Assembly: GCA_009841165.1 (NCBI GenBank)
Contig: VXMI01000057.1
Span: 1 to 42,478 of the forward strand
DNA length: 42,478 bases
Reading direction: 5' to 3'
Source: Gemmatimonadota bacterium
GTDB taxonomy: Bacteria; Gemmatimonadota; Gemmatimonadetes; Longimicrobiales; Gaopeijiaceae
A program made the position numbers and the translations under genes. The notes beneath the pieces were generated by a model, which did not search any database, had not been told where the DNA came from, and saw nothing but the letters and a program-made list of their open reading frames with translations. Shown piece after piece: positions 1,398-38,672 of the stretch. The stretch's first letter is position 1. Every line of letters begins with the position of its first letter.

Positions 1398-4010
1398 TCA
1401 GTGCGTGAGCACCGCCCGGTATTCGTCAGCGTCCCTGAGCCCGTAGTCCTCGTCCGTGACCTGCAGGACGCGGACCCGGTAGAGCGGGAGCTGGTTGCGA
1501 TCCGGCACCCGGAACTGCATGAGGGGACCCGCTGCGAGCGAGCCCGCCACGATGACCTGATGCTGCCCGGACTCCCTGGACTCGTACAACTCCAGACCGG
1601 CGGCTTGGATGGCTTCGATCGCTGGACCTTCGAGTTCCAGCAGTACGCCCCTGTCGCGGTTGCCGGCGGGCGCAGCAAGCTCCACGGTCAGGAAGCCTGG
1701 ATCCAGCTCGGTGGCGGCTGGGGCGACCGGTCCCTCCGAGGCGTCCGTGCACGACCAAGTCATGATCACGGCGAGCAGCACGCCGACCGCGTAGCTCGCC
1801 ATGCTCCCTCGGCGGCGCCCACGGCGCACCGGTGCGTCTCGGCGAGGCTCGGGAGCCTGCCCGCGCCTACGGCCTGAGGTCCCCCGGCCTCGGACGGCAG
1901 CGAGCAGCGCGGCGGCACCCACCGGCCCGGCATCGGCGGAGGTTGGGCCACAGCGCGCCTCGCCTCGCTGGCAGCGCTCGATCCAGGAGAGTACGTCCCC
2001 GAGGTCGTACCTGCCGTTCCCGTTGCCCAGACGGTCCAGCGCGGCCTGCCGGGCCTCGCTGAGCACCCGCTCACCGAACAGGGCCGCGGCGGCCTCGTCC
2101 GGGCTCAACCCGCCCGCTACGGCCAGCGCCTCGTCCTTGGGGGCCAACGAGTCGACCGCCACATCGCCGTTGGCGTCACCCGCGCTCGGCCCGTCGATAG
2201 TCGCCGAGGGCGAGTTCGACAGCGGCCGACCGTCCGGCGTGCAGATCGCACCCGACGCGCTGCAGTCGGTCGTTGCCGCCAGCGTCACGGTCACGGTGTC
2301 GGACGAACGCGGCCGAACCGTGATCGTCCAGCGCTGGTTCTGCCCCTGTGCCACGCGCTTCGCGCCCGTCACCCGCCCGTTCGTCGCACTAAGCGCTTCG
2401 TCCTTGAGCTTCTTGTAGGGCAGCTTCCCCGGGAAGTTCTCGCTGAACCGAAGCTCGAAGCTGAACTCCTTGCCCTTGCCGCCGTGCGCGGTCGGCACGT
2501 CGTGAAACGCGGCGGTCAGCGGGGTTCGGTTCGATGGTCCCACCACCGTCGCCGAGGGCGAATTCGACAACGGCCGCCCGTCCGGCGTGCAGATCGCACC
2601 CGTCGCGCCGCAGTCGGTCGTTGCCGCCAGCGTCACGATCACGTCCTCGGACGAGTGTGGCCGCACCGTGATGGTCCAGCGCTGGTTCTGTCCCTGTGCC
2701 GCGCGCTTCGCGCCCGTCACCCGCCCGTTCGTCGCACTAAGGGCCTCGTCCCTGAGCTTCTTGTAAGGCAGCTTCCCCGGAAAGTTCTCGCTGAACCGGA
2801 GTTCGAAGCTGAACTCCTTGCCCTTGCCGCCGTGCCACGCGGGCACCTCGTGGAACGCCGCCGTCAGCGGCGCCCTCTCCTCCAAGGTGGTCACAGACAC
2901 GGGTTCCGAGTACGTCGGTACAGTGTTAAACCCGAACCGGATGCGGAAGCTATAGGCGGTCTCGGGGCTCAGTCCGGTAACTGTGTGCGCCACCGCGTCA
3001 CCGCCAAGCTTTGCCACCGGTCTCCACCAGGCCCCACTAAGACCCGCCTCCTCCTGTTCCACTGCGATGTAGAGCTCATCCGCTATCTGCGTTGCCCACT
3101 CGGGCAGTTCGGCGGGCAGCGTCCACGCCAGGTCGACCGTCGTCTGCGTCGCATTCGAGGCCGTCAAGCCGGTGGCGGGTTTCAGATCCTCCTGATCACT
3201 CGTCCACGACACGACCTCGGAATCCGCGTCGCCGAAGTTGGTGACGAGCCGGACGCGGTAGTAGTGGGTAGTGCCCCCGTGGCGCACATCCCGAGGAGTC
3301 CGGATCACGTCCCCCGGCTGCGGCTGCCAGTGGCCCACAGCGAGGCGCTGCGTTCGGCGCAAGTCCGGGACCGCCGTGACGCCGGGCTTTGTCCGCGCAG
3401 AATAATACTCCACGGCAGTCACACGCACGCCCGGCACGCCCGCGCCCGCGGGCTGGGCGGGATACGTCCAGGACAGCTCGACCGTCTTCCCGCCCTTGAA
3501 CAAAACCGAGAGGTCCGTGGCGGGATTCGGACCGATGGTCACCGGCGCGCCGGAGAACTTTGGCACCAAGGTGCCGTCGGTGTAGCGCAGGGGCTCGTGT
3601 AGCCCGTTCGGGTACCCCGGAGAGGGAGGGGTGTTGGGGACCTTGTCCGGGTCGTAGCTCACCGTGACCGTCTGCCCCGGTTCCGCGCCCATGCCGAGTT
3701 CGAGTGTGGCCGTCCGGTTGTCCATGGTCATCGCACTCGGCTGCACGCTGCCGCTGTTCGAGATCCCGTCAACCGTGAACCCCTCTACTAGCAGTGAGGT
3801 GGTTCCTATCACCACCGGCTTGTCGAATGCGAGGGTCAGCTTCGTCCCAAGCAGCCACGCGGACTGCACCGGCTGGGACGCGGCGTCCTGTGCCGCAGCA
3901 GTCCCAGTGCCCGCCAGCAGGGCGAGGGCCAGGGCGACTGTCGCCCGCCACGGACGTGCGAGGCGCGCCAATCCGTCCGGCGTAGTCCTTTGATCGATCA
4001 GGTTCATCAT
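1398..4010 (-). CDS. secreted multidomain surface protein (SwmB-like, fibronectin III, duplicated domain)
   Basis: The start at 4010 is chosen because AGGAGG lies about 8 bases upstream; the frame is open further up but runs through the recombination site. The 870-residue product has a signal peptide ending near TAAAQ (about residue 41), then a SwmB-like beta domain. Two fibronectin type III-like domains follow (ELSWTYP and DLAWTLP strands). Next comes a ~115-residue domain present twice almost identically (residues ~377-493 and ~495-607; each has KEFSFELRFSENFPGKLPY). A helical calcium/dockerin-like part follows (LDRLGNGNGRYDLGDVLSWI). A second hydrophobic segment ending in MTWSC (residue ~754) precedes a C-terminal beta domain. 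The likely role is a cell-surface or adhesive protein. The upstream flank carries one of two inverted recombination sites 28 bases before the start codon, suggesting switchable expression. Confidence 0.75.
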   Translation of the reverse strand: MMNLIDQRTTPDGLARLARPWRATVALALALLAGTGTAAAQDAASQPVQSAWLLGTKLTLAFDKPVVIGTTSLLVEGFTVDGISNSGSVQPSAMTMDNRTATLELGMGAEPGQTVTVSYDPDKVPNTPPSPGYPNGLHEPLRYTDGTLVPKFSGAPVTIGPNPATDLSVLFKGGKTVELSWTYPAQPAGAGVPGVRVTAVEYYSARTKPGVTAVPDLRRTQRLAVGHWQPQPGDVIRTPRDVRHGGTTHYYRVRLVTNFGDADSEVVSWTSDQEDLKPATGLTASNATQTTVDLAWTLPAELPEWATQIADELYIAVEQEEAGLSGAWWRPVAKLGGDAVAHTVTGLSPETAYSFRIRFGFNTVPTYSEPVSVTTLEERAPLTAAFHEVPAWHGGKGKEFSFELRFSENFPGKLPYKKLRDEALSATNGRVTGAKRAAQGQNQRWTITVRPHSSEDVIVTLAATTDCGATGAICTPDGRPLSNSPSATVVGPSNRTPLTAAFHDVPTAHGGKGKEFSFELRFSENFPGKLPYKKLKDEALSATNGRVTGAKRVAQGQNQRWTITVRPRSSDTVTVTLAATTDCSASGAICTPDGRPLSNSPSATIDGPSAGDANGDVAVDSLAPKDEALAVAGGLSPDEAAAALFGERVLSEARQAALDRLGNGNGRYDLGDVLSWIERCQRGEARCGPTSADAGPVGAAALLAAVRGRGTSGRRRGQAPEPRRDAPVRRGRRRGSMASYAVGVLLAVIMTWSCTDASEGPVAPAATELDPGFLTVELAAPAGNRDRGVLLELEGPAIEAIQAAGLELYESRESGQHQVIVAGSLAAGPLMQFRVPDRNQLPLYRVRVLQVTDEDYGLRDADEYRAVLTH

Positions 4011-4037
4011 CGTGTACCCCTCCTGTTTTGGAGTTTG

Positions 4038-4065
4038 GCGCGCGATAACTGCCTTTATCGCGCGT
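4038..4065 (+). repeat. dif-like recombination site, left copy
   Basis: Two 11-bp inverted arms, ending in CGCGATAA and beginning with TTATCGCG, flank an asymmetric 6-bp centre, CTGCCT. The ATAA, six bases, TTAT core is the layout of Xer dif and plasmid pdif sites. The site lies between the start of the minus-strand surface-protein gene and the start of the plus-strand recombinase gene. Confidence 0.75.
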
Positions 4066-4105
4066 GAACTCCGGAGGAATCCGCCGACGGACTGGAGGGC
4101 ACTGA

Positions 4106-5095
4106 ATGCCAGATTCGAGGACCTGGGACCGTTCCTCATCGGACTCATGGGCGGGGAGCGACTCGGATGGAGAGGGAGGGGAGCGATTGGACTCGTTCCT
4201 CGCGTCGGTGAGCGGTGCGTTCACCCGCAATACAGAGCGCGCGCTGAGGGCCGACCTTCGGATCTTCGTGTCCTGGTGCCGGCAACATCGGCTCGACTCC
4301 ATGCCGGCCCGCACCGCTACCGTGGCCGCGTTCATCGATGAGATGGAGCGGGAAAAGGCTCCGGCCACGGTGCGCCGCTACGTGTCCAGCATCGCCACCT
4401 TCCACAGGGTGCTCCGGGCCCCCAATCCGGTCGACAGCGCCGCCGTCCGGCTCGCGCTGCAGCGGATGTACCGGATCCGGGGACGTCGCCAAGCCCAAGT
4501 GCAGGGACTGACCTGGAATCTGCGGAACCGGCTTCTGGAGGCGGCGGGCAGCCGACTGATCGACATCCGAAACCGAGCGCTCGTAGGCGTAGCCTACGAC
4601 ACGCTACTGCGCCGATCGGAACTGGTATCGCTGAGAGTGTCCGACTTGACGGAAGAAGTCGACGGCTCCGCCACCCTGCTCGTCCGGAAAAGCAAAACCG
4701 ACGCGGAGGGAACGGGCGCGGTGCTCTATCTGGCCCGCGACACCGTGTTGCTCGTCAGGGATTGGCTCGACCGCAGCGGAGTCGCCGGAGGGCGGCTGCT
4801 ACGGTCGGTGCGCAAGGACGGCACGGTGGGGGAACGGCTCCCTCCGAGCCAGGTGCCCCGCATCTACAAGGCAATGGCGCTGCTCGCCGGGTTTCCCGCC
4901 GATACCGTGGCCGCTCTGGCGGCGCACAGCACGCGCGTGGGGCCGGTGCAGGACATGATCGCCTGCGGAATCGAGTTGCCGGCGATCCTCCAGGCCGGGC
5001 GCTGGCGAAGCGCGCGGATGGTCCAGCGCTACGGTGAGCGATTGCTGGCGCGGCGCAGCGGCGCGGCGCAATTGGCCGCTATGCAGCAGCGCTGA
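4106..5095 (+). CDS. tyrosine recombinase/integrase
   Basis: The 329-residue product has a SAM-like core-binding N-terminal part (residues ~28-130; TERALRADLRIFVSWC) and a catalytic C-terminal domain. Catalytic residues visible are the first Arg in YDTLLRRSELVSL, Lys in RKSKTD, the His-Ser-Thr-Arg box in AAHSTRVGPVQDM, Trp in AGRWRSA (the His/Trp position) and the nucleophile Tyr in MVQRYGERL, so it should be active. Start choice: ATG at 4106 with GGAGGG about 7 bases upstream. It is bracketed by identical inverted dif-like sites 41 bases before its start and 176 bases after its stop. The family includes integrases, dif-module recombinases and DNA invertases. The flanking sites make a local invertase the most economical role. 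Confidence 0.85.
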   Translation: MPDSRTWDRSSSDSWAGSDSDGEGGERLDSFLASVSGAFTRNTERALRADLRIFVSWCRQHRLDSMPARTATVAAFIDEMEREKAPATVRRYVSSIATFHRVLRAPNPVDSAAVRLALQRMYRIRGRRQAQVQGLTWNLRNRLLEAAGSRLIDIRNRALVGVAYDTLLRRSELVSLRVSDLTEEVDGSATLLVRKSKTDAEGTGAVLYLARDTVLLVRDWLDRSGVAGGRLLRSVRKDGTVGERLPPSQVPRIYKAMALLAGFPADTVAALAAHSTRVGPVQDMIACGIELPAILQAGRWRSARMVQRYGERLLARRSGAAQLAAMQQR

Positions 5096-5211
5096 AAAGA
5101 TCGGCTTGTCGTCGCGGTGCCTGGGGAACCTCCGGTCAACGGCCGGCATGATCGCTGCTCCCTAATCGTTCTCTGCGGCTGCTGTGAGGCGAGATTACCG
5201 TCGCGTATTTC

Positions 5212-5240
5212 TTGACGGCGTGACATGGTCGCGATACAAT
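5212..5240 (+). promoter_or_regulatory. sigma-70-like promoter directed out of the invertible segment
   Basis: TTGACG (5212-5217) and TACAAT (5235-5240) are separated by exactly 17 bases, each one mismatch from consensus. Transcription would start near 5247 and run through the dif-like site at 5271-5298. After inversion of 4038-5298 it would read leftward into the surface-protein gene, with a leader of roughly 80 bases that includes its ribosome site. Confidence 0.6.
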
Positions 5241-5270
5241 GCCTCGTGTGTTCGATAGAAACAGCGTTTC

Positions 5271-5298
5271 ACGCGCGATAAAGGCAGTTATCGCGCGC
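5271..5298 (-). repeat. dif-like recombination site, right copy (inverted)
   Basis: This is the exact reverse complement of all 28 bp of 4038-4065, including the asymmetric centre (AGGCAG on this strand). Weak similarity continues a few bases into both flanks. No third copy is present in the window. Confidence 0.75.
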
Positions 5299-5803
5299 AA
5301 AACCGATCGAAGAACCGCTGAGGACATCGCCCATTTCGGGCTCCCACTCCTTCAGCTTGCCGGGCTGGCTCACACTCGCGCAAGGAGCATGCCCGTCGCA
5401 GTGGCAGCACTCGCACCAGACGCGCGCAGGACGAAGCGGTCGCCGGTCTTCTGACTGGTCGAGTTGGGTCGTCTCCGCGGACTACCTGCTGCCGGTTCCC
5501 AGGCTCGTGTCGAGCTACTCTTGCCTGTACAGCGTGCGGTCGTCGGGAGGCCCGATGAGGACATGAGCGCGGCCATCGGACGCCCGGCGACGGTCACCTC
5601 CGACTGGTGGGAAGGAACGCTGGTACCGGTGTTTCCAGAGCGGATCTGGCGAGAGCGGGTCACGGAGTTCGAGGACCGGTCCGTTTGTTGTCCGAACGAC
5701 GCAGCAGATAGCTCGGTCAGGTCACTCTAAGTATCTTCGAGGCTCCGACGACGCGGCGCATGTTCGTTAGAAGCGAAGCGTCCGCAAGCTCCGACGTTAC
5801 GAT
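5299..5803. other. non-coding stretch with dispersed-repeat sequence
   Basis: I see no convincing gene here. It holds a dispersed repeat copy at 5523-5640. A block at about 5352-5395 (with GAGCATGCCCGTCGC) resembles 15190-15233. Transcripts from the outward promoter at 5212 would cross this region towards the DUF2971 gene. Confidence 0.5.
5523..5640 (+). repeat. dispersed repeat family A, copy 1
   Basis: It begins with a CCTGTACAGCGTG block, has GGCCATCGGACG in the middle and GGAACGCTGGTACC near the end. The same ordered blocks recur at 16902, 18202 and, partly, at 15075, 23452 and 9809. The copies are diverged and intergenic. No protein reading is preserved between copies. Confidence 0.55.
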
Positions 5804-6598
5804 ATGTACTCCGATCATTCGCAGCTTTGGCCCCCACCGGACGACGCCGTGCTTTGGCGGTACATGGATTTCACGAGATTCGTGTCACTGCTCGACACAG
5901 GTGCGTTGTTCTTTTGTCGTCCGGACTTGCTTGGCGATCCGTTCGAAGGATCCTTATCGCCAGCAACACCGCCTCTCCTCGCTGCGGACCCCGAAGCGGG
6001 ATCGTTCACGCTGCGTGAGGTCGACATTCGGAAGTTTGTTGGCCAGGCGCGCGTGAACTGCTGGCACATGAGCGAATTCGAGTCCGAGGCGATGTGGCGG
6101 CTGTACGCTCAAGAACGGAAGGGCATCGCGATCAAAACGGTCTTCGCTCGTTTCAAGGAAGCCTTCGTCGGCGACGAGACCATCACGGCATCGATGGTTC
6201 GCTATCTGGACTACGAAACCGAGGGCTTTCCCTTCTCAAACCTAATGATTCCGCTGTTCCACAAGAGGGTCAGTTTTCAGCACGAACAGGAGGTCCGCGC
6301 TCTGTTTGTTCCGCACTTATCGGAAGATGGGCCGGACGAGACAGCCGGCTGCTACTGTGAGGTCGATCTACCGAAGCTCGTCGAGGAGATCGTTGTCGCA
6401 CCGTTCGCGGAGGACTGGTTCGCCGACCTCGTGCGTTCCCTTTCAGAGCGATACGGGATCGGCGACCGGGTTCGACCGTCCACGTTGTCGAAGGTCCCCA
6501 CGTTCACGGCCCGCTTCCTGATGGGTCACGGTGGCGACCGCCTGTGGCGCGACGAGAAGCCCCTCCCCACGGTAGGGAAACTCGATGGAGGTCCATGA
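5804..6598 (+). CDS. DUF2971 family protein
   Basis: The 264-residue product matches the DUF2971 pattern: an N-terminal LWRYMDFTRFVSLLDTGALFF, the conserved DLLGDPFEGS block, NCWHMSEFESEAMWRLYA, GIAIKT, and FHKRVSFQHEQEVRALF in the second half. The biochemical role of the family is unsettled; it is frequent among accessory and defence genes. No ribosome site stands out before the ATG. The next two genes on the same strand (6790 and 8217) also look like defence or nuclease genes, so the three may form a small defence cluster, though gaps of 130-190 bases argue against a tight operon. Confidence 0.75.
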   Translation: MYSDHSQLWPPPDDAVLWRYMDFTRFVSLLDTGALFFCRPDLLGDPFEGSLSPATPPLLAADPEAGSFTLREVDIRKFVGQARVNCWHMSEFESEAMWRLYAQERKGIAIKTVFARFKEAFVGDETITASMVRYLDYETEGFPFSNLMIPLFHKRVSFQHEQEVRALFVPHLSEDGPDETAGCYCEVDLPKLVEEIVVAPFAEDWFADLVRSLSERYGIGDRVRPSTLSKVPTFTARFLMGHGGDRLWRDEKPLPTVGKLDGGP

Positions 6599-25090: not shown

Positions 25091-27211
25091 TTATGATGCA
25101 ATCCTCTGTCGACCGGCACGAAGATCGCGTGTTCGCGCCGCTAAACGGGCGGCCAGTTTTGGCAACGATTGCTCCGAGACCGCACTGGGCAGCAGCGCTT
25201 GGAGGACAATGCGATTGATGTGCTCCTGCATGTCATGGGAATCTCGGGTCAAGTTCCTACCCGCGGCATCCAGCGCGGACCGTGCCTCCTTCGTGAGCCG
25301 GGGCACGAGGAGTCGGCGCAAGTGCGTGGCCTCTAGCTTCAGGGCACCGCCGCCAAGCGGTGTGCCAGACGCTTCCATGAAGCACCTACACCAGACGCTG
25401 TTGAGCAACGCTTTGACTCCGAAGCGTGTCCAGCTGTCGTCCGGTATCGAAATGGTCGAAAAGTTGGCGTCTATCAACAATGGTGGATCCACGTTTCGTT
25501 CGATCCATGGCGTGCCATGATTCACTCGGGGTACGAACGCTGCTGGTAGGTGCCGCGGGGCAAAGTCCGGAATCATGTACCAGAAGCGGGGTATCGCACC
25601 CTCGCGGTTCGGTTGGCGTACATTAGTGCGTACCGCCGAGAGCTCTGGGATGAGTTTCTTGCCTTGCGACCCATCGGCGGAGACAGTTGAGGCGTGGCGG
25701 ACGAACGCGGCCAGCGCAGCTGGCATGACACATGGGGGATTTGTCCGATGTTGCTCGTAGGCCGGACGAGCGTCCGCGACCGAGGCTGAGTCTTCCGGGA
25801 GAACCCAGGCGCGCAGGTCGAGAACGCGGTCGTGTGGAACTCCCCCGCTTTCGACAAGCTTCATCTCCGCTTGACGCCGGAGCGCGGGGCGGAGGGCGGC
25901 GGAAGGCACCGCAAACTCAGTACCGCCTAGCGGGTACGATGCCCTAACCTGAACGCTCGCGTTCCTAACCGCGCTGCAGGCCGTCACGTAGAAGAATGCG
26001 TTGCAGCCCGTACGGAGCCCTTGGCCGATTCTCACGCCAGCCTTTTCCAAGGGAATGAGAGGCGCGGTGTCGGCACTAGGGGGTAGCAGGTCGCGCAACG
26101 CTTCGGGAAGAGCTGGCCGTGACGGCCGCCGTGCGGCAGAGACCGGCGACCCGCGTGCGCCGTCGCCTTCAAGCGATGGGTACCAGGAGGTTCGCCGCAA
26201 GCGTGCATTCAGCGTAGCCCATTCATGGCGCAACTCGAAAGTCTTGACGTCAATACCGCGCGCTGGATCGGTCGCTCCTGCGTAGACCGATGCTGCAAAT
26301 CGTGCTTCGGGATTTGCGCCCGCGAACGCGGCTCCAACAAGTGAGTGTCCATCTGACGCTCCTTGAGCAACGTGAACCCATCGAGCGTCGGCCCACCGTG
26401 TTCTTCTGTGGAGGCGCGGTCTTGTTTGGGGAATGCTCAGTCGCCTTGCAATGATCAGATGCGTGCGTACCAGAGCGTCGGAGAACCAGCCCGGTTGGGA
26501 ATCCGCGACGATGGTTTCAAGCGCGAAGAAGCGAAGAAGCATGTACCGGATGACATCGGCGTAGTTGCGGGAGCGCCAAGTAGCTGGGGCGACAAGAGCA
26601 AGCCGGCCGCCCGGACGCACTAAGAGGCCAGCAAGGAGCCAAGCCGGTACGGATAGGTCGGATAGGCCCGAATAGTTCCGCACGAGCACTCTCCAGATTT
26701 CGCGGTCTGCCCCACCGTAATGTCTGTCGAGGATCTGCTCGAGACCCGAGCGAGGCGGGATGGTGGCCTCATCATCGCCATTGCGCGTCTGGTAACGCAC
26801 ATAGGGCGGATTGGTGATGACGAGGTCGTAGCCCCGAACCGGCAAGGCGCTCGCCGTAGCTGGATCGAAGGCGTCCGCTTCAAGAATCAAACCATCGGGA
26901 CCGGATGTCTTGGGGACGAGTGCAGCAAGGCGGCCACGGCATACATCGGCAGTGGTCGTGTCGATCTCAATGCCGTCAAGGCGCGCGATGTGAATGGCTC
27001 GTTCGACGGCCGCCTCGCGAGTTGCATCCAGCAGGTCCCCATGCCCCGCCATCGGATCTAGAACAGTGCGGGTATCGGACCGTAGAGCGAGGTGCGCAAG
27101 AAGCTTACCGAGCGGAATGCCCGTGAAGTACTGGCCGAACTGCTTGCGCCGCGCCGGGTCCAGCGTCTGCTCGTAGGCACGTGCTGCGGCTCTTGCTGTA
27201 CACCGCCTCAT
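25091..27211 (-). CDS. N6-adenine DNA methyltransferase (Eco57I/TaqI-type)
   Basis: The 706-residue product shows FGQYFTGIPLGKLLAHLAL (residues ~25-43), the AdoMet-binding motif VLDPMAGHGDLLDAT (~49-63) and catalytic motif IV NPPYVRYQ (~134-141). The long C-terminal half, including an ELSAVRTNVRQPNREGAIP region, is likely for target recognition, as in Eco57I-like methyltransferases. It modifies adenine N6 in DNA to protect self sites. Its ATG at 27211 overlaps the stop of the upstream methyltransferase gene as ATGA, so the pair is co-translated. Together with the convergent PLD endonuclease it suggests a restriction-modification system with an asymmetric recognition site needing two methyltransferases. 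Confidence 0.85.
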   Translation of the reverse strand: MRRCTARAAARAYEQTLDPARRKQFGQYFTGIPLGKLLAHLALRSDTRTVLDPMAGHGDLLDATREAAVERAIHIARLDGIEIDTTTADVCRGRLAALVPKTSGPDGLILEADAFDPATASALPVRGYDLVITNPPYVRYQTRNGDDEATIPPRSGLEQILDRHYGGADREIWRVLVRNYSGLSDLSVPAWLLAGLLVRPGGRLALVAPATWRSRNYADVIRYMLLRFFALETIVADSQPGWFSDALVRTHLIIARRLSIPQTRPRLHRRTRWADARWVHVAQGASDGHSLVGAAFAGANPEARFAASVYAGATDPARGIDVKTFELRHEWATLNARLRRTSWYPSLEGDGARGSPVSAARRPSRPALPEALRDLLPPSADTAPLIPLEKAGVRIGQGLRTGCNAFFYVTACSAVRNASVQVRASYPLGGTEFAVPSAALRPALRRQAEMKLVESGGVPHDRVLDLRAWVLPEDSASVADARPAYEQHRTNPPCVMPAALAAFVRHASTVSADGSQGKKLIPELSAVRTNVRQPNREGAIPRFWYMIPDFAPRHLPAAFVPRVNHGTPWIERNVDPPLLIDANFSTISIPDDSWTRFGVKALLNSVWCRCFMEASGTPLGGGALKLEATHLRRLLVPRLTKEARSALDAAGRNLTRDSHDMQEHINRIVLQALLPSAVSEQSLPKLAARLAARTRDLRAGRQRIAS

Positions 27212-29142
27212 GAACTTGCACCTTCGCTCAACTCATCGGCACAACGCTCTTCATACCAACGGTAAAAGGAATCCGCGTCCACCGGGATCGGCTGATGACG
27301 AGCAAGGAAATGGCCAACCAGACGTGAGAAAAGCCGCTGCGCCGACCGTTCGCTGGGGTCGTTGGTCAAGGCCGCCTCCTGCCGGAGTCTCTCGGCGATC
27401 GTCCAGACGGGGGAAGCCGATTTAGTGTCCGGCGGCGCTCTCTTGGTGAGCAGCAGCACCGGATCACCCCGGACGGCGCCGTTCGTGGTAACCTGCTTGA
27501 AACTCCCCTGTGTCTTATCGAGGATGCCTGCGCAGTCGAGGTGAAAACCGGCGTCGGTATAGGCACCCCGTAGTGCGTTCCAGATTTCCGCTGAGGCTGA
27601 GTGAAAAACAAGCGTGGTCATGCCGGTAGGCTTGAGAATGCGACGAACCTCGCTGAGTGCGATCGTGAGGAGCCGCTGGTATTCCGAGACAGACTTGTTC
27701 TGGGCGTTGCTGACGATGATCTCCTCGGCGCGGTTGGTCTGGCGCCCGAGCCACGCTTCATTGATGAAATTGATCTCTGCGTAGGGAATGTTGCCTCCGA
27801 AGGGTGGGTCAGTAAACACATAGTCGACGCTACCATCAGGCAGATGGATGCGGCAGCTCGACTCCTGCCGAACCTCGACCCTTCCCTTGCGACCGTGCGT
27901 TACCGCGAAAGCTCTGGCGATGGTCGAGAGCTTCCGCCGCAACCCCAGGATTAGGTTCTTCTCAACCGGAAGGCCGCTGACATAAAGAACGCCCGGTTGG
28001 GCACTGGTGGGAGTCAAATCTCTCTGGCCCGACTTTGCGACAACGCGCGTCATGATGGTTGCATGCGAGGCGTTGTAACTCAGCAGCCAGAAGCGCAGCG
28101 CGTCGCGAACCTCGGCATTATAGGACGCGGTACGCTGCCAGAGGCGACCAAACACGATCAGATTGCGCCTTGTGTAGAGGTGGTGGAGGTGGGTGATGCC
28201 GGCATGATAGCCTCGGCGATACAGATCACCCCAAGGCATGGCCACGCGAGGCACGGTATCCGGGATGGATTCAACCTCGATCCGGTTGAGCAAGGAGATA
28301 TCCTGCTGAGTAGCATCGCGCGACCAACTCTTGTTGCCCGTCGAGCCGTAGATGCGTCCGATACACCTCAGGCGGAGCGTCCGGCTTGTCCCAAGCAGGC
28401 AATCGTGCGTTTCCTGGGTGACGCGCTCGACCTTGTCTAGTGGCGCTTCAAGCGCACAGCGCCCGCAGGTGAAGAGGGATGCGATGCGAGCCGGGTCCAG
28501 GGAAACGGAGGAATCCCACAGAGTCGTTTCCCGCCGGCAGGTTGGACATTCCAGCACGTCGGACCAAACGACATGGCGGATTACGCCACTTCGACCCTCG
28601 GGATTCTTGGCGGCGTACATCCAGCCGTCTTCTGCTTCGGCGACCCGCAAGATGTCCTCTGCGGCTTTCCGAAAGGCTAGCGGATCGGGCGGGTTGGTCA
28701 GCGTGCGCCCGACAAACGCGCCGAGTGCGCCTAGTTCGTAGAGCACAGCGTTGCGAGCACCCCACTGCGTGCCCAGACCAAGCCGCTGAGCCTCCGCACG
28801 CAGCGTCAGCGGAGGATCTTCGCACAGCAAGGCCGCAACGCCAGTGGTGCCGCTTCCGGCAAAGCCGTCGAAAACGGTGTCGCCGGGCTTGGTATGGGCG
28901 GAGATGAAGAGTGCGATGGCTTCGGGCGAGATCTTCGTAGGGTACGAAAAAGCGCTGTATAGAGGACCGCTGCGACGTGCGGGCAGCGCCCTATGGTAGA
29001 GTGCCTCGCGGTGGCCGAAGGGAGGCCTGAAATGCTTTCGGTTGGACTCCGTACGGCTCACTTGGCTCGCCTCCAATTCATTCGCGCTCACGGCCGCCAG
29101 TGGCTTGGAAGCCCCCCGGTTCGTGCCTCCGGAGGTACTCAT
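27208..29142 (-). CDS. DNA methyltransferase with zinc-binding insert
   Basis: The 644-residue product has YSAFSYPTKISPEAIALFI followed by AdoMet motif FDGFAGSGTTGVAAL (~91-105), and catalytic motif TDPPFGGNIPYAEINFINE in the second half. These are features of N4-cytosine/N6-adenine methyltransferases related to DUF1156 proteins. Between the two motifs lies a CxxC...CxxC pair (ECPTCRRET and TCGRCALE), a probable zinc knuckle. It is the first methyltransferase of a two-gene unit; its 5' end overlaps the ribbon-helix-helix gene by 65 bases. Which base it methylates cannot be told. Confidence 0.85.
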   Translation of the reverse strand: MSTSGGTNRGASKPLAAVSANELEASQVSRTESNRKHFRPPFGHREALYHRALPARRSGPLYSAFSYPTKISPEAIALFISAHTKPGDTVFDGFAGSGTTGVAALLCEDPPLTLRAEAQRLGLGTQWGARNAVLYELGALGAFVGRTLTNPPDPLAFRKAAEDILRVAEAEDGWMYAAKNPEGRSGVIRHVVWSDVLECPTCRRETTLWDSSVSLDPARIASLFTCGRCALEAPLDKVERVTQETHDCLLGTSRTLRLRCIGRIYGSTGNKSWSRDATQQDISLLNRIEVESIPDTVPRVAMPWGDLYRRGYHAGITHLHHLYTRRNLIVFGRLWQRTASYNAEVRDALRFWLLSYNASHATIMTRVVAKSGQRDLTPTSAQPGVLYVSGLPVEKNLILGLRRKLSTIARAFAVTHGRKGRVEVRQESSCRIHLPDGSVDYVFTDPPFGGNIPYAEINFINEAWLGRQTNRAEEIIVSNAQNKSVSEYQRLLTIALSEVRRILKPTGMTTLVFHSASAEIWNALRGAYTDAGFHLDCAGILDKTQGSFKQVTTNGAVRGDPVLLLTKRAPPDTKSASPVWTIAERLRQEAALTNDPSERSAQRLFSRLVGHFLARHQPIPVDADSFYRWYEERCADELSEGASS

Positions 29143-29272
29143 TGATCGCGCGCCGGATTACCCAGGATATCGAGGCATCGTCCTTGGCGGCGAGCACTGA
29201 AAGCGCTTCGTAGGCGTCGCCCGTCAGGCTGACCGTGAGACGAGGACCGAATCTGCGGGGTTTTCGCTTCAT
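29078..29272 (-). CDS. small ribbon-helix-helix (CopG-like) protein
   Basis: The 64-residue product, from ATG 29272 with GGAG about 10 bases upstream, contains the ribbon strand RLTVSLTGDAYEAL and a helix pair ending in SISWVIRRAINEYL. This is typical of CopG/Arc DNA-binding proteins. It is the first gene of the methyltransferase operon and overlaps it, so it is a good candidate for its repressor, timing methylation against restriction as controller proteins do; the latter is inference. The longer frame upstream (to 29611) has no protein-like character and crosses a palindrome. Confidence 0.65.
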   Translation of the reverse strand: MKRKPRRFGPRLTVSLTGDAYEALSVLAAKDDASISWVIRRAINEYLRRHEPGGFQATGGRERE

Positions 29273-29542
29273 CCTGGAATCGCTCCGTTCACTGAACAGC
29301 CGCCACGCTCTTGGATCTGGGCAACCAGAAGCTATGGGAATGCGGAGCTGCATGCAACATGGTGATGCATTGCGATGCACAGTTGATCTTGGCGTCATGT
29401 CGCGTAAGGATCGGTGAACCCGCAGAACGATCATCGTTCCCGTTTGGCGGCGCACGGAGATCCGTCTTGGTCGGGAAGCAGTGGATCGAGGCGACTTCGA
29501 CCATGCCGTGCGGATTCCTGGCCGCGAATCACGTTGTCCAGA

Positions 29543-29578
29543 GGCCGATTCTGCAGACAGGTGTCTGCAGAATCGGCC
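29543..29578. terminator. perfect 17-bp inverted repeat downstream of the helicase gene
   Basis: The arms at 29543-29559 and 29562-29578 are exact complements around 2 bases, near the 3' end of the minus-strand nuclease/helicase gene (stop at 29736). It could terminate that transcript. There is no T-run, and the site could equally be an operator for the methyltransferase operon starting at 29272 or a transposon end. Confidence 0.45.
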
Positions 29579-29730
29579 ATCAGCGGTGGACCGGGCACAA
29601 ATGAGCCACACGGTGCCGACCGAGAAGGCGCGGGCCCTGGCTAGCGCTAGCCAAGGGGTCAGCCCGCGAGCCGCTTGATTCGACCAGTGCGCTGCCGGTC
29701 ATCACGGAGTTGACCGAACCGGCTGCAGGT
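29573..29730 (+). repeat. decayed gene start shared with 9.1 kb (family C, copy 2)
   Basis: It aligns with 9095-9245 from just before an ATG (29602) through CCGACCGAGAAG and a CCGCGAGCCGCTTGATTCGACC block to GTTGACCGAACCGGCTGC. The copies share order but neither keeps an open frame. The left end touches the palindrome at 29543-29578. Confidence 0.45.
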
Positions 29731-29735
29731 CCCGT

Positions 29736-32700
29736 TTAGGTGGCTCTCCGAAGGTCACAGGTCCTTGCTTGGCCCGATTCATACAATGTCACGGTCCCTG
29801 CGGAAGCACATGTCTGCTCAGCAAACCGCTTCACCAACAGAGACTCCGCGAGCACGTCTTGATCGTTCGACAGATGCTCAATAAGAGACTCGGTCAAGAA
29901 GACGACCAATTTGGCTCTGGCTCGCGAGGCCATGACGTTGAAACGTCTCAAGTTGTAGAGGAACTCCTCTTCAGACGCTATCACGTCGGGGTCCCCGATA
30001 CCGAAGGACGCGAGAATGATGTCGCGCTGCTGACCCTGAAATCGCTCGACGGTGTCCACAGCCCCACGTATGAGATCTGGCGGCTCGTCCGGGAACATCG
30101 ATTGAAGCTGCGCAACGATTAGCCCCATTTGTGCCCGGTGTGGCACGACGATGCCCACTGATTGCCGCCAGAACTGGGAGGGCGTCGTCGTTCTTGGGGC
30201 ACGGTATCGTCCGTCTCGGATCTTAACCCCGAGGGGATCGAGTTCGCCGTCCAACCCGTGGAGCAAGTCTCGGCGGAACAGCCACACCAACGAGACAATA
30301 CTCTCGGCCTCAAATCGGTTGGCCTGACCGCTCCGGCGATCCTTGTACACGATGGCAGTGATCGGGTAGTCGGGATCCATGATCTTCGCATGGTCCGAGG
30401 TCCAGGTTAGGTCGGAAGGCCAGCCCTCTGGAGCCGCGGAGTGAGTTTGGCGTAGACGGATGCGGAGATCCGGAGAGCGTGCCCTCAACTCAGGTTCGTA
30501 GCCAGCTTCGCGAGTGAAGGCGATGAGCGTGGAGTTAGACCTGAAGCTGACGTTCAGTGGCACGGGCTGTACACCGAGGTGATGCCGACAATAATTATAG
30601 ATTGAGCCGACGACATCTTCAAGTTCAAGTGGCGGCGTGGCTGGATGTATGGGCGGCAGCTGAAGATCATCTCCCGCCAATACGCATGTTCCCCCGGCGG
30701 CCCGCTTCGAGAACACAAGCGTGCTATGTGCTACGTCCACCTGTGAGGCTTCATCTAGAACGATGAGATCGAACCACTCCCGCTGAGTTGTACTGGCTGG
30801 GGGATTCCTCCGCGCGCCGATCGCGAGATTGTGAAGTTGCTGCGTGGGACTACCGACGACCATGATGTGGTCGGGCGCGTCAAGCGATCGCAGTAACGCT
30901 TTCACCTCCACAGACGGCTTGAAACGATTCAATGGCAAATTCTCGACCATGCGATACCGGTCATCGAAATCATGCTCGACCGGCCTCCTATCGCTCTGAA
31001 TCCGATGCAGCGTACACGGCCACCTTCCGGTCGAATGCAGGTCGCTGAGATCGTCGTGAAGCCGAAGGAGAATGTTGTCGACCGCCGGGTATGTGTTGGC
31101 GGATACTAGGATCCGTAGTGGCTGCCGGCGGCTAGCGGCGTTCAGCACCGCGCCGACGATAATGGCTCGAAGTGTGTAGCTCTTTCCCGTGCCAGGCGGG
31201 CCCCAGACGAGAGTAAGTCGGCGGTCCAGAGCAATCTCCAAGGCGTTCCATTGGTCATGCATGAGGACCTTGCTGACTCCATCGAGAGCCTTCTCAAGGT
31301 TTTTCCGAAGCGGCGCCACGGCCGTGCCGCTTCGTTGCTCCCGCAGGCGCGAACCATCCCAAAGAACCTCTGCCGCTGGAGTAAGCCGGCTCCTGCCCGC
31401 CGTTGTCCCTGCGGGAAGTCCCAAGGCCTCAAGCATGCGCCGGGTCGGTTGGGCAATCGGTGGGTTGGCGATCCCGCGTAGAGTGAGCTGGACTTTCTTC
31501 GTAAGGTAGTCCGTCTCTACACGATCAAGGGTACATGGGCCGGCGAATGAAATCCCGACCTCATTTGTCAGTTCTGCGAACCGGCTCCGTGGGTCCGGGC
31601 GGAGTGCGACAAGCCCCTGCTGGCGCTCGATGCTCTCAATCGTTACAGCCGTCAGCTTGGCGTCCGCGACAGTGGTTCCGTATGCCCGAATGCTGGTGTC
31701 CTTTGTGAGAACGTAAGGATGCTGGTCTAGGAAGTTGGTGTGGGCGTCGGGGACAATCGCGTATCCGAAGTCTCCTGGTCTCGCGTTAAACTCGTAGGAG
31801 CCTGGGGCCAGCTTGTAGACGAGCAACTCGCTTGGCCGAGTTAGCGGACCGGGCGCCACACGCTGAAGATAAGGAAGGGCATCCCGGTGCCCGGCCCCCT
31901 CGAGGCGCATCAATAGCCGGGCGGACTTGAACCGGGCTTCTCGCTCGTGCGGAGGCATCGCCCGTACACGATCTGCCTCTAGCGACGCGAGAGCACCGTT
32001 CAGGTGAGTGAATTCGAGCCAAAGGTGGCTCACGGGTGCCAGTCCAGCCGTCCTTTTTGGTGGGGTTGGGATCAGAGGTGCGCTGAGCAGGCTGAGTTCA
32101 TCCTTCAGCCGCCGCTCTAGGGTGCTGACGACGAGCCCGAGGGCCAGCAGCTTCTTCTGAGACGTCTCTACGATGAGAGCTTGAGTCTCTTGCCACTTGC
32201 CGCGCTTCAGCCAGAATTCGTGGATTCGCTCAGGCGGCAACAGGTTGCTCAGCGTATCGCGATAGAGGGGGTGTATCGTCGGTGAAGTCAGAGACGTGTC
32301 ATTGAACGTAGCGGCCACATCCAATAGCGTGTAGTGGTGAGGGTTGGGCAGTGCAACGGTGTTTCGCACGACATCGTACACGAGTGTGAACGGGCTGCGC
32401 CTCGTTGCGTCGTCTGGTTTGGTGAGTAGTTCAGGGGGAGGGAACAACCACGCGAGAACCCGGAGTTCCCGATCCGCCAAGATTCTCGGAAGGTAGCGCG
32501 ATACTAGTCGGACCAAGTGCCGTCGCTGGGCGTCGTCCCACAAGTAGATCTGGTAACTGCTGTGGCGTGTCTTACGATTCCGTCGTCCGGCAGCGTCATC
32601 AGCCTCATCCTGGCCGTGTACCTCGCGGAAGATCCGCCTGATGTGGCGGAGGAAGTTTCGGAACTCGCGCCATTCATTAGGTACTCCCTGGCGGTCTACC

Positions 32701-34172
32701 AAAAACACTTCCGTATCACCACTACGCCGGCCCCAGCGCCGGATTCGATTCTCAATTGTCGCCCCGTAGGGAAGCGGTTCCTTCCAGAATGCCCTTAGTC
32801 CGAACGAGACCGTCATTGCCGTCGCAGGGTCGTAGTCGACAAACACGTAGACATGCAGGTCTGGCCATCGTGGCATCAGAGCATCGCCCCCACTATCAGG
32901 GACGATGGTCGACGTTCGTCGCCCCAAGGCATCGGCTCTTGACGGGTACACGGTACGTTTTGCCCGAAGTCCCTGATGGTCCGTAAACGCGGTGTGGTCA
33001 GGGCTGGCTCGGGCCAAGGCAGGCACATCGGCAACCTGATGTTCCCTTAGAACCCAAACGGAACCTTTGGACAATCCGAACACACGAGAGAGGTGGTTTG
33101 TTCTCTCGGCAGTCGGCCAGCAGTGGAGAGAATCTTGGGTAGGACGGTTATTCGTGTCGCGGATGTGCGGGTCACCCAAGAACTCACATCCGCTACACCG
33201 ATAGTCTACATGGTACGCCGTGTCCGTCCATGGCGTCTTGAGGAGCGTAGGAAGAGCATTGGCGAAGAGGTCTCGAAGCCGCGGTGCAAATGCTTCTACC
33301 GGCGCAACCTCCAAGTCGTTCTCGAAGACTTGGCTTAATTCGGCAGCGGTGGGGATGTATCCCGTTTCTCGCCACTCACGCACTTGCTTCAGAAGCTCGG
33401 AATCCTCCAGCGAACCCGGCAATACAGCTGGAGCTGCGACGACCAAGTAGTCCTTTGCGAGGTCTTGATCTACCAGCCAGCCAGCCAAAGCCATCGAGTA
33501 GAAGACAACCTCGGCGTAGTAATGTGCACCAGGTTGGCTAGCCATCTTGATGTCCGCGACACGGAGGCGGACGCGGGAGTCATGCACGGGATCGACTGGC
33601 CGGGTATGCCCGCTGGGAAGAACTTCCTCACAGTATCCAGCCTCCACGTGCGTCCAGTCAGCTTGGTGCTGAATAAGCGGTGGAAGTACTTGAATCAAGT
33701 CCGGCTGCAGGTCTCCGAGCTGGAGTGTGAGGCCGTTCAGATCGTCTAGGGCCAATAGTCCGACGGCGGCCTGAAAGGCAGATGTCTTGGCGGAGAACTT
33801 TCCTTCAACCAAGAACTGGTACGGGGTCAATGATGTCAAGACTGAGTCGAGCGGTGTATGTGGGATTCTTCCCGCACTGTCGATACCAGATTCTAAGATC
33901 ACGTTTGAGGCACCGAAGACACCTTGCAGTTCCTTGACTTTCTTAGCTTGCCACAAAAACCCGTGCCGACCGACTAATCCGAGCCCAGCCCGACCGCCTT
34001 GATGAGGAGGCATATTTAGGGCAGCCCTGGTTTTCTTGTCAGTATACAGATGCAGCAAGAGTTGTCTCTCGCACCCCACCCGGAAGAACAAAGAGATTGC
34101 GCGTTTGGTTAGGCGAGGAGGCCGCAGCTCCGGTGTTGACGAAGAGGCTGTTGGTGCGATCGGTTCGCTCAT
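29736..34172 (-). CDS. Cas4/TM0106-like nuclease fused to an SF1 (Upf1/Dna2-type) helicase
   Basis: The 1478-residue product starts with a RecB-type nuclease of the TM0106 kind. Cys34 (FRVGCERQLL), Cys326, Cys329 (YRCSGCEF) and Cys351 (LHCW) fit an iron-sulphur cluster; Asp207 and Lys209 in RVADIKMA belong to the nuclease core, with a YAEVVFYSMAL segment after. A long middle region leads into a helicase: Walker A VWGPPGTGKSYTLR (~990), DEAS in VLDEASQVD (~1136), AGDDLQLPPI, then VERFQGQQRDIILASF (~1380) and RRFNVMASRARAKLV. This resembles Dna2-type proteins that process DNA ends. The gene overlaps the upstream methyltransferase gene by 4 bases (ATGA), which points to a methylation-guided restriction or defence pair. 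The stop lies just past a conserved-looking C-terminus. Confidence 0.85.
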   Translation of the reverse strand: MSEPIAPTASSSTPELRPPRLTKRAISLFFRVGCERQLLLHLYTDKKTRAALNMPPHQGGRAGLGLVGRHGFLWQAKKVKELQGVFGASNVILESGIDSAGRIPHTPLDSVLTSLTPYQFLVEGKFSAKTSAFQAAVGLLALDDLNGLTLQLGDLQPDLIQVLPPLIQHQADWTHVEAGYCEEVLPSGHTRPVDPVHDSRVRLRVADIKMASQPGAHYYAEVVFYSMALAGWLVDQDLAKDYLVVAAPAVLPGSLEDSELLKQVREWRETGYIPTAAELSQVFENDLEVAPVEAFAPRLRDLFANALPTLLKTPWTDTAYHVDYRCSGCEFLGDPHIRDTNNRPTQDSLHCWPTAERTNHLSRVFGLSKGSVWVLREHQVADVPALARASPDHTAFTDHQGLRAKRTVYPSRADALGRRTSTIVPDSGGDALMPRWPDLHVYVFVDYDPATAMTVSFGLRAFWKEPLPYGATIENRIRRWGRRSGDTEVFLVDRQGVPNEWREFRNFLRHIRRIFREVHGQDEADDAAGRRNRKTRHSSYQIYLWDDAQRRHLVRLVSRYLPRILADRELRVLAWLFPPPELLTKPDDATRRSPFTLVYDVVRNTVALPNPHHYTLLDVAATFNDTSLTSPTIHPLYRDTLSNLLPPERIHEFWLKRGKWQETQALIVETSQKKLLALGLVVSTLERRLKDELSLLSAPLIPTPPKRTAGLAPVSHLWLEFTHLNGALASLEADRVRAMPPHEREARFKSARLLMRLEGAGHRDALPYLQRVAPGPLTRPSELLVYKLAPGSYEFNARPGDFGYAIVPDAHTNFLDQHPYVLTKDTSIRAYGTTVADAKLTAVTIESIERQQGLVALRPDPRSRFAELTNEVGISFAGPCTLDRVETDYLTKKVQLTLRGIANPPIAQPTRRMLEALGLPAGTTAGRSRLTPAAEVLWDGSRLREQRSGTAVAPLRKNLEKALDGVSKVLMHDQWNALEIALDRRLTLVWGPPGTGKSYTLRAIIVGAVLNAASRRQPLRILVSANTYPAVDNILLRLHDDLSDLHSTGRWPCTLHRIQSDRRPVEHDFDDRYRMVENLPLNRFKPSVEVKALLRSLDAPDHIMVVGSPTQQLHNLAIGARRNPPASTTQREWFDLIVLDEASQVDVAHSTLVFSKRAAGGTCVLAGDDLQLPPIHPATPPLELEDVVGSIYNYCRHHLGVQPVPLNVSFRSNSTLIAFTREAGYEPELRARSPDLRIRLRQTHSAAPEGWPSDLTWTSDHAKIMDPDYPITAIVYKDRRSGQANRFEAESIVSLVWLFRRDLLHGLDGELDPLGVKIRDGRYRAPRTTTPSQFWRQSVGIVVPHRAQMGLIVAQLQSMFPDEPPDLIRGAVDTVERFQGQQRDIILASFGIGDPDVIASEEEFLYNLRRFNVMASRARAKLVVFLTESLIEHLSNDQDVLAESLLVKRFAEQTCASAGTVTLYESGQARTCDLRRAT

Positions 34173-35299
34173 GGTTGTCTTGCAGGGATGGAGTGATTGG
34201 ACTCTAGACTTTGACTAGTCGCCTCTAGAGAAGGATCGTAACGAGTCGTAACTCCGTTCGTCGCGGGAGCCGAGACAGAGACGTCGGCCAAGTCAACGCC
34301 TACCGCCCGGCGCCCGAGCTTGACCGCTACTTCGAGCGTAGTACCCGACCCCACGAATGGATCAAGTACAATCCCGGGCATGAATCCGTCTTGACATGAG
34401 CAGGAGGAGTATCCGACCGATTTCCATTTGGGAAAAGTGAATTCCCGGAAGTAACCTCCCAGTAACTTCTTCGCTTCCGACGCGAGGCGCTGCACGTCTT
34501 CGGAGTTCCTTTGTCCTTGGATCCGGCGACCTTTACCCGCATCTGATATTCCAGTTGCTTGAATCGCTGCTATGTGATCTCTCGTTATGCCCACCTTCTT
34601 GGCCAACGCCTGTGCCCGCCTAGCCTGTGGCCGCTTCAGGTTCAGAGACATCGTCTTTTGCATTTGGCGCTCCCGCGGGCTTCCACATGACGGGCAGACC
34701 TGGCTCGGACAAGCGAGAATGATCGCGCGCTCAACAAGTTCACTCGGGAAGGGCGCCAAGTGAGCACCTTTGCGAAGGGAGGGTGGGAACTGCCAAACAT
34801 CGCCTGGTGCGGCTCCTTCACCCAAGTACTTGGAGTAGGCATGGAGATCGTAGAAGTACTTCGTCGATCTGGTCAAGTGCAGGACGTACTCATGTCGGTT
34901 CGGAAGTCGATTTCGGGCTGGCGTCGGCATCCCCCTCATCTTGGACCAGATGATGCGGTTCCGGATCTTCCACCCTTGTCCGCGCGCTACCTCCTCTAGA
35001 GCACCTGGGATCCCGCAGAGGCTGCGGTGGTCGTTGTACGTGTCACCGATGTTCATGAACACCGAGCCGGACGGCTTCAGTACCCGTTGCATCTCACGCA
35101 ACACCTTGGCCATTTCCTTCGCGTACTCTTCGGGACTGCTCTCCTGGCCGATCTGGAGCTCGAAGCCGTAGTCGCGCTGCTTGTAGTAGGGAGGCGACGT
35201 GACCACGAGATCGATGGATTCCGACGCCAAGGGGAGACACCGTGCGTCGCATCTGTATACCGCCAGGCGATCGATGATCTGGTTCGCTGCTCGACTCAT
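34169..35299 (-). CDS. site-specific DNA methyltransferase (SPPY, beta-class)
   Basis: The 376-residue product begins with catalytic motif IV TSPPYYKQRDYG (~33-44) and ends with AdoMet motif I DPFVGSGTTLEVAVKLGRR. This order is that of beta-class methyltransferases; SPPY is typical of N4-cytosine enzymes. A CPSCGSPRE motif and a later SSCSCQDG give a likely zinc site in the target-recognition region. The start ATG 35299 has GAGGGG at 4 bases. The gene is translationally coupled to the nuclease/helicase gene and preceded by its own promoter at 35349-35377, so the pair is a separate transcription unit from the ubiquitin-like operon upstream. Confidence 0.85.
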   Translation of the reverse strand: MSRAANQIIDRLAVYRCDARCLPLASESIDLVVTSPPYYKQRDYGFELQIGQESSPEEYAKEMAKVLREMQRVLKPSGSVFMNIGDTYNDHRSLCGIPGALEEVARGQGWKIRNRIIWSKMRGMPTPARNRLPNRHEYVLHLTRSTKYFYDLHAYSKYLGEGAAPGDVWQFPPSLRKGAHLAPFPSELVERAIILACPSQVCPSCGSPRERQMQKTMSLNLKRPQARRAQALAKKVGITRDHIAAIQATGISDAGKGRRIQGQRNSEDVQRLASEAKKLLGGYFREFTFPKWKSVGYSSCSCQDGFMPGIVLDPFVGSGTTLEVAVKLGRRAVGVDLADVSVSAPATNGVTTRYDPSLEATSQSLESNHSIPARQP

Positions 35300-35348
35300 G
35301 GTCCCCTCAACGCTCAGAGTGTGCTCGCCGTTTGCCCCTTCCGAAGAG

Positions 35349-35377
35349 ATTATACCTAGAGGACGCCCCGTCGTCGA
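35349..35377 (-). promoter_or_regulatory. sigma-70-like promoter of the methyltransferase-helicase pair
   Basis: On the minus strand a perfect -10 box TATAAT (35354-35349) is 17 bases downstream of TCGACG (35377-35372), a 4-of-6 match to TTGACA. The predicted start is near 35342, leaving a leader of about 43 bases before the methyltransferase ATG. Confidence 0.55.
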
Positions 35378-35410
35378 CCCCTGCCGACGTCGAGTCGCTT
35401 AGCTGCTCAG

Positions 35411-36556
35411 CTAGGCTCGTGGCGTCATCGGTAGGTTGCGGTCGAGTGGACCAATGCTGGTGTCGATCCAGGGGAGGTGGAGTGAGCCTCGGCTGGTGGC
35501 CAGACTGGTCTGAACCGTAGGATCGGGCCAGAAGTGCTGGCGAATGCGGGAAGTCGGAGGAGCCGGACGGCGAACGCCAAGTTGGAGGCCAAGCTGGTCG
35601 CGGAGGAGACGGATACAGGCCACAACCGAGGAACGAGGATCCGGGCTGCAGACTCCGGCGACGGTGAGCGAGACGAAATCGGACTCGAACAGCTTCTTAT
35701 CGTCGCCAACGACGAGGTGCTGTAGGCAGTAGAGCTTCCAGTATTTCGCCCACATCGGATCATCGGGCCGCTCGCGAGTCACCGTCAACCCAATGGCTTG
35801 GGCGTCCTCGGCCGAGATTACGTGTCCGTGGGTGTGCCAAGTATTGATGTTCATCAAGCTGGACACGGGCGCGGTTACCGGTTGACCGGCCATCATACCC
35901 GTCTTGAGCAGTCCTTCCGCTAGATGGCGGGTTCTCTGCTCGGCTCGCTCGATCTCAACGACCTCGTGCGGTTGGAACTTATTGAACAGGATCTGAACGC
36001 TGGCATCGCCCGGGTTCCTCCGCAGTTCTTCGGTGAAGCGCCTATGGGCCTCAAGGTAGCTGAGAGCCGAATAGAGCATCCATCCTCCTTGGCCGTCCGG
36101 GAACGGTACCTGAGGATCTATGGGGCCGAGCTCAGAAGTGTCGCTCATGACTATCGAATCCGCGCCGAGCGCCATTAGCGTTGCGGCGCTCTTCGCGTAG
36201 TGCGGCACGATCACACGAAGCTCCCCGTCCTTGACGGTATGCCGAACCATGCTGATGAGCTTCTCGGCAGCATCGATGTCTCCCCCGCCTGAGTGAAGGA
36301 CCAGATCAACGTTGCCGCCGGGCTCGATTCGACATAGGAGGTCGCGAAAACCGAGGATGTCGTCGCGGTCGATCTCGGTTCGCTTCCCTCCTATGTAGCA
36401 GATGACATGCCGATCCACTTCCTCTTGAATCTCACGGATCAGACGTTGTCGCTCATATCGATCACCCTGCTGAGCCTCGTAGAGTGGGGTTCTACGCGGC
36501 GCCGAGAATCGCTGATCGCCCGGCTGGTTCTGCGAGCTAGTGGACGGATCCCTCAT
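35411..36556 (-). CDS. ClpP/SDH-like serine protease of a ubiquitin-like operon
   Basis: The 381-residue product belongs to the SDH/SppA (ClpP-fold) serine peptidases: VDLVLHSGGGDIDAAEKLISMVR (~83-105), the serine in HYAKSAATLMALGADSIVM (Ser123), and SELGPIDPQVP after it. A C-terminal tail of about 65 residues is unlike typical members. The start ATG 36556 overlaps the upstream DUF6527 stop (ATGA), and GGAGGA sits about 7 bases upstream. As the last gene of a ubiquitin-like operon it could remove or process conjugated ubiquitin-like protein. From memory, such ClpP-like proteases accompany Bub-type bacterial ubiquitin-like operons. Confidence 0.8.
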   Translation of the reverse strand: MRDPSTSSQNQPGDQRFSAPRRTPLYEAQQGDRYERQRLIREIQEEVDRHVICYIGGKRTEIDRDDILGFRDLLCRIEPGGNVDLVLHSGGGDIDAAEKLISMVRHTVKDGELRVIVPHYAKSAATLMALGADSIVMSDTSELGPIDPQVPFPDGQGGWMLYSALSYLEAHRRFTEELRRNPGDASVQILFNKFQPHEVVEIERAEQRTRHLAEGLLKTGMMAGQPVTAPVSSLMNINTWHTHGHVISAEDAQAIGLTVTRERPDDPMWAKYWKLYCLQHLVVGDDKKLFESDFVSLTVAGVCSPDPRSSVVACIRLLRDQLGLQLGVRRPAPPTSRIRQHFWPDPTVQTSLATSRGSLHLPWIDTSIGPLDRNLPMTPRA

Positions 36557-36912
36557 GTTCTATCCTCCTGCGGTCTAACGGTCCATAGCACCCGGCCACC
36601 ATGAATGAAATAGTGACACCGGGACGACTTCGAGAGGTGATCCACACTCGGCTGGATCGTCAATGGATCCAGGTCGAGGGCTTCCCACCAAGGGTACCGC
36701 TCTGAATCGAGGTTGAGCATCACGCGATGCTGGCGAGCGCACGGGCAATTAAAGACGAGCCAGCCGGGCTTGCCTCGTCCGAACATTACCAGCGCGGCAC
36801 CCCGATAGGGGAGATCCTCTGGTACGTCGATGGCCGATGCAACCAAATGGGTCACGCGCCAGCGCCTCCACGGTAGCGGCAATCGCGCGTACCACTTCTT
36901 CAGCGCGTCCAT
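36553..36912 (-). CDS. DUF6527 family protein
   Basis: The 119-residue product (start ATG 36912; the frame extends 13 codons up into the E1-JAB gene) has YRGAALVMFGRGKPGWLVFNCPCARQHRVMLNL, WWEALDLDPLTIQPSVDHL and a CHYFIHGGRVLW ending. The CPC, a second Cys and His in the C.YFI-type segment could bind zinc. The family is small and usually sits beside E2, ThiF and JAB genes. It is placed between the E1-JAB and protease genes, overlapping both by a few bases. Its function in conjugation is unknown. Confidence 0.65.
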   Translation of the reverse strand: MDALKKWYARLPLPWRRWRVTHLVASAIDVPEDLPYRGAALVMFGRGKPGWLVFNCPCARQHRVMLNLDSERYPWWEALDLDPLTIQPSVDHLSKSSRCHYFIHGGRVLWTVRPQEDRT

Positions 36913-38285: not shown

Positions 38286-38671
38286 GACACCTCCGGCGAG
38301 GCGCAACGGACGAGTTCCTGACGGATAAGCGTGAAGAAACTACCGATCCCATCCACCCCAGAATGCCACTGTTCGGGACGCAGATGCCGGGACCAGCGCT
38401 GCCAGCTCCTGCCGAGATGGTACTCCGTAGCCTGTGTGGCGGGGATCTCGCGCCCGTCGCTACGAAGCACGGCAGGATTAAACCACCACATGTCAGGCGG
38501 TAGATCTGGATATCCCATCGGCAAACGCACGAGGAGGTCGGCTTCTGGAAGGGTGTATCCCGATGGAAGCGTCCACCCGGGCACCACAACGCAGACCATG
38601 CCGCCCTCGGATGAGACTGAATACTCGACCCGGCGCTCCGACAAGAACGCGGTATCCGGCGCGGGCAACAT
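38282..38671 (-). CDS. prokaryotic E2-like protein (family E type)
   Basis: The 129-residue product starts at ATG 38671, one base after the upstream stop (TAAcATG); a start at 38725 would overlap that gene by 53 bases. It matches the E2-E family: VPGWTLPSGYTLPEADLLVRLP, MGYPDLPPDMWWFNPAV and GRSWQRWSRHL, then GVDGIGSFFTLI. The usual catalytic cysteine after the PPDMWWF strand is absent: the only cysteines are near residue 27 and near the C-terminus. From memory, the Bub-type E2s are reported to use a different residue. The protein is expected to carry the activated ubiquitin-like protein. Confidence 0.75.
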   Translation of the reverse strand: MLPAPDTAFLSERRVEYSVSSEGGMVCVVVPGWTLPSGYTLPEADLLVRLPMGYPDLPPDMWWFNPAVLRSDGREIPATQATEYHLGRSWQRWSRHLRPEQWHSGVDGIGSFFTLIRQELVRCASPEVS

Positions 38672-38672
38672 G

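Follow-up and report, generated by a model that had tools for sequence, protein, structure and literature searches.

The window, a 42,478-nt stretch of a Gemmatimonadota genome, contains near its left end a tyrosine recombinase gene bracketed by two inverted palindromic sites. The left site (4033–4068, + strand) sits between the recombinase gene (4106–5095, +) and a divergently oriented gene for an 870-residue secreted protein (1398–4010, −), the two genes being only about 96 nt apart. Beyond the secreted-protein gene stand a gene for an AlpA-like helix-turn-helix regulator (252–773, −) and a TrbC/VirB2-like pilin gene, truncated by the window edge to its 5′ portion (1–232, −). On the opposite side, a promoter-like sequence (5212–5240, +) is followed by the right site (5268–5303, −) and a flank with no clear gene (5304–5536). 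Farther to the right, positions 5804–6598 encode a DUF2971-type protein (just under the Pfam cut-off) that matches the candidate defence family PDC-S31; in G154, a protein that resembles it by eye is encoded beyond the trb cluster (L127:16556–17305). Positions 25091–38725 form a likely defence island, whose products include several proteins resembling DNA methyltransferases, one that resembles a helicase and matches DpdJ, and ThiF/E1-like and ClpP-like SDH protease proteins. The window contains no tRNA.

The recombinase reading frame is complete, as a previous reading made from the letters alone (hereafter the sequence-only reading) had recognized, and encodes 329 residues that match the Pfam Phage_integrase family at 1e-13. 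In a phmmer search of the PDB, Cre of phage P1 leads the matches (E about 3e-28), with XerD at 5e-5, and the top phage matches are P1/P7-type cre genes. Residues R169, E172, K197, H274, R277, W300 and Y309 match the catalytic set of Cre (R/E/K/HxxR/W/Y), and these positions are invariant in all ten aligned sequences. By homology, the enzyme is a Cre-type tyrosine recombinase. We rejected a XerCD/dif identity, since the XerC and XerD models match weakly, far under their cut-offs, and Cre heads the PDB matches. The structure model of the enzyme is of low confidence (mean pLDDT 58.7). Among related loci, dN/dS values of 0.09–0.46 point to purifying selection on the recombinase, and no convincing promoter of its own was found in the clade I loci. 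The window's own genome encodes a second, distant Cre-like recombinase (L024, G000:C21:276–1178; 35% identity), around which paired lox-like sites are absent from the stretch read.

The two sites form an exact inverted repeat of 31 bp (4038–4068 and 5268–5298) that reaches 36 bp at 97% identity with one mismatch (4033–4068 and 5268–5303), and by a rough estimate the chance of such a pair arising in about 1.3 kb is below 1e-10. Their core, CGCGATAA-CTGCCT-TTATCGCG (4041–4062 and 5274–5295), is a palindrome with an asymmetric spacer, which is identical in the two copies. The sequence-only reading had correctly placed two identical sites in inverse orientation around the recombinase gene but had called their core dif-like; because the enzyme is a Cre homologue with weak XerC/XerD matches, we denote the sites lox-like, and they are presumably the targets on which the recombinase acts. 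A search of the 4.27-Mb genome at up to three mismatches returned just these two copies and found no extra site able to be an inverted junction.

The promoter-like sequence at the right inner end of the segment consists of TTGACG and TACAAT elements spaced by 17 bp and points outward through the right site. Although a consensus match only, it has no sigma70-like rival in the scanned 2 kb, where shuffled sequences give an expectation of 0.2, and it is kept in the window's clade: four clade I loci carry an outward TTGAC-17/18 promoter-like sequence at this position (shuffle p 0.005–0.025 each), with weaker matches in clade II and L035. At the left inner end, facing the secreted-protein gene, the same scan of the loci found no promoter-like sequence that stands out. 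Both the outward promoter and the lack of a clear one for the secreted-protein gene in this orientation had been put forward from the letters alone, and both held. As far as 5536, the right flank is also present in the RHO3 relative L032, and parts of it are present in the bin94 and bin43 loci; in clade II it holds a gene for a GAF-PAS-kinase-receiver-winged-helix regulator or its remnant. GTGAC-type repeats lie on both sides of the element in clade II (L036, L037, L022, L038, L006 and L067), in the 5′ region of the recombinase gene and outside the right site, and are absent in four clade I loci; they are possibly sites of the adjacent kinase-regulator.

The predicted target, the 870-residue protein, has a signal peptide (by eye), fn3 and a C-terminal modular domain. 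Its gene starts at 4010, 27–28 nt from the left site, and is preceded by AGGAGG, in agreement with the 28 bases and the ribosome site previously described. The inverted sites bound a promoter-like sequence beside a candidate target gene, which is the layout of a promoter inverton. This adjacency is repeated elsewhere: in seven of the ten loci examined, a long exported-type protein starts 17–34 nt from the left site, whereas in L032 a MauG-like gene starts there, and in L038 and L006 another open reading frame stands before the surface-type gene. Database labels conflict for L038, whose ‘Gammaproteobacteria’ metagenome-assembled genome (MAG) is apparently G405, placed in the window's family. 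The order of secreted-protein gene, AlpA-like gene and trb genes is shared by the window, G017, G154 and G405; in relatives, the pilin gene is the first of several consecutive trb type IV secretion genes, of which the window holds just the start of the first before the contig ends. The repeated adjacency supports the surface protein as a candidate target, but because the trb genes follow, the target may be wider. In the stretches read, no matching lox-like motif was found near other proteins that share the C-terminal domain of the surface protein and have no recombinase.

With modest confidence, we take the locus to be a promoter inverton of the Cre/lox type that encodes its own recombinase and was assembled in the OFF state for the secreted-protein gene. 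According to this model, the recombinase encoded inside the segment would recombine the two inverted lox-like sites and thereby flip the 1.2-kb segment. As assembled, the outward promoter-like sequence has its back to the secreted-protein gene (OFF); in the flipped state it would, if active, read across the left site into this gene and continue in the direction of the AlpA-like and trb genes (ON), so that transcription of the secreted protein might run on into the transfer genes.

The layout recurs in 11 loci in nine genomes (the window and eight more, with three loci in G097), each with a recombinase between inverted lox-like sites. The close recombinase relatives share 54–85% protein identity, and in the tree, whose deeper branches are unsure, the two-site loci cluster together (support 92/98). 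Prevalence is low: in the window's family 5 of 121 genomes are positive, and in a second family 2 of 35; paired sites are absent in the distant relatives G286 and G228. A protein scan of viral contigs found no relative; 22 viral contigs (L077–L098) each carry one GCGCGATAA-N6-TTATCGCGC palindrome.

Some copies are distributed as a mobile unit might be. Besides the three copies in G097, L032, from a MAG labelled Bryobacterales, is 86% identical to the window at the DNA level, nearer than the copy in the congeneric G017, and its homology to the window begins at the left site. The region L032:3267–4960 also shows a degenerate lox-like site, the third of the locus and directly oriented, which adjoins a decayed secreted-protein gene and is separated from the element by the MauG-like gene. 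Integration at a site could produce such an arrangement, which is possibly a site-specific capture of a gene. These features would suit a compact mobile or transfer-associated module whose paired sites are the unit ends, which spread with the secreted-protein/trb locus or was duplicated, and for which inversion is incidental or absent. However, the flanks are co-inherited (the left secreted-protein gene in most loci, the right kinase-regulator gene in clade II), insertion into unrelated genes was not seen among the loci, and conservative recombination between a pair of inverted sites does not allow excision of the unit; we consider such a module unlikely. The old degenerate L032 site may record a flipped junction, but the comparison is suggestive only: one of eight tests gave p 0.007, and a local-alignment version was not significant.

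The spacers bear on pairing. They are identical within the pair in 10 of 11 loci, L035 being the mismatched exception, and vary between lineages (CTGCCT, CGGGAT, TTGGTAG, TGGGAG and others). Cre-type recombination requires matching spacers, so identity within pairs points to functional pairing of the two sites; together with the difference between lineages, it is as expected of sites that recombine with each other. Orientation tempers this picture. In all ten loci checked, the recombinase gene diverges from the left-site gene, an agreement with a probability of about 0.002 if both orientations were equally likely, although these are assemblies with one genome per species, in which a minority orientation is invisible. 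This implies that switching is rare, strongly biased or absent, and frequent unbiased switching is unlikely. The sequence-only reading had proposed to seek the inverted arrangement in relatives and had named its absence as a refutation; within this assembly-only sample the arrangement did not appear (0 of 10 loci), and the phase-switch reading as a whole is partly supported. A single orientation, and a left site between such closely spaced divergent genes, would also be explained if the palindromes were mainly operators at which bound recombinase regulates divergent transcription, with the segment effectively fixed; yet binding alone would need neither the catalytic residues nor the spacer identity that are preserved, and we regard this explanation as improbable.

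Among more distant homologues, we read five from plasmids (39–50% identity). A lox-like palindrome lies upstream of the gene in three, including a single palindrome in each of the Methylobacterium and Flagellatimonas plasmids; at the criterion used, the other two have none, and an inverted pair like that of the window occurs in none of the five. Because these relatives have one palindrome or none and no pair, the two-site arrangement looks derived, as judged from five plasmids and a tree with unsure deep branches. In Acetobacter pAC258-29, the recombinase relative adjoins repA and type IV secretion genes, and trb genes adjoin the window locus and its relatives. Together with the lone plasmid palindromes, this context would fit a Cre/lox-like maintenance system that resolves multimers of a conjugative element, the second site being a duplication without a regulatory role. 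We hold this to be distinctly unlikely, given that a second inverted site with a matching spacer is kept across lineages, beside an outward promoter that clade I retains, and that one genome has three separate loci. More tentatively still than the inverton reading itself, and with considerable doubt, a single-site plasmid-maintenance Cre/lox system could have turned into a self-encoded inverton that brings a secreted adhesin-like protein and trb genes under phase variation in animal-associated Gemmatimonadota.

For the inverton, existing data could be informative: the sponge Aplysina aerophoba is the source of the bin94 and bin43 genomes, and its PacBio and Illumina reads are reported as deposited (PMC5649159), making inversion directly testable. 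Should the segment flip, a Cre homologue encoded inside it would operate a natural promoter switch, and phase variation would be tied to a secreted protein and, after it, to conjugation genes in uncultured symbionts.

A recombinase encoded within its own segment was claimed to be unusual; the layout recurs in 11 loci and has a precedent in Hin, although the latter is a serine enzyme that uses unrelated sites and is not homologous to the window enzyme. Rci of the R64 shufflon is a tyrosine recombinase that acts on a conjugation-linked adhesin, but it rearranges the adhesin ends through several sites and its gene lies outside the segment. FimB/FimE-type recombinases and RecV share with the window locus a tyrosine recombinase and the proposed segment flipping; these enzymes, however, do not belong to the Cre type and are encoded outside the segment that they flip. 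Segment flipping by these enzymes phase-varies surface structures (PMC5903667, PMC11868660), and the Hin segment of Salmonella likewise encodes its recombinase inside the invertible segment (PMC5903667). There is also a close likeness to Cre/loxP of phage P1 and to Cre-type systems such as Nigri/nox and Panto/pox: their enzymes are homologous and share the catalytic residues, and their target, close to the gene, is a palindrome with a short asymmetric spacer, although the spacer is 6–7 nt as drawn for these loci and 8 in loxP. In one survey, each candidate recombinase was paired with one target site (PMC4957104), whereas the window locus has two inverted sites that bracket the recombinase gene and a promoter-like sequence.
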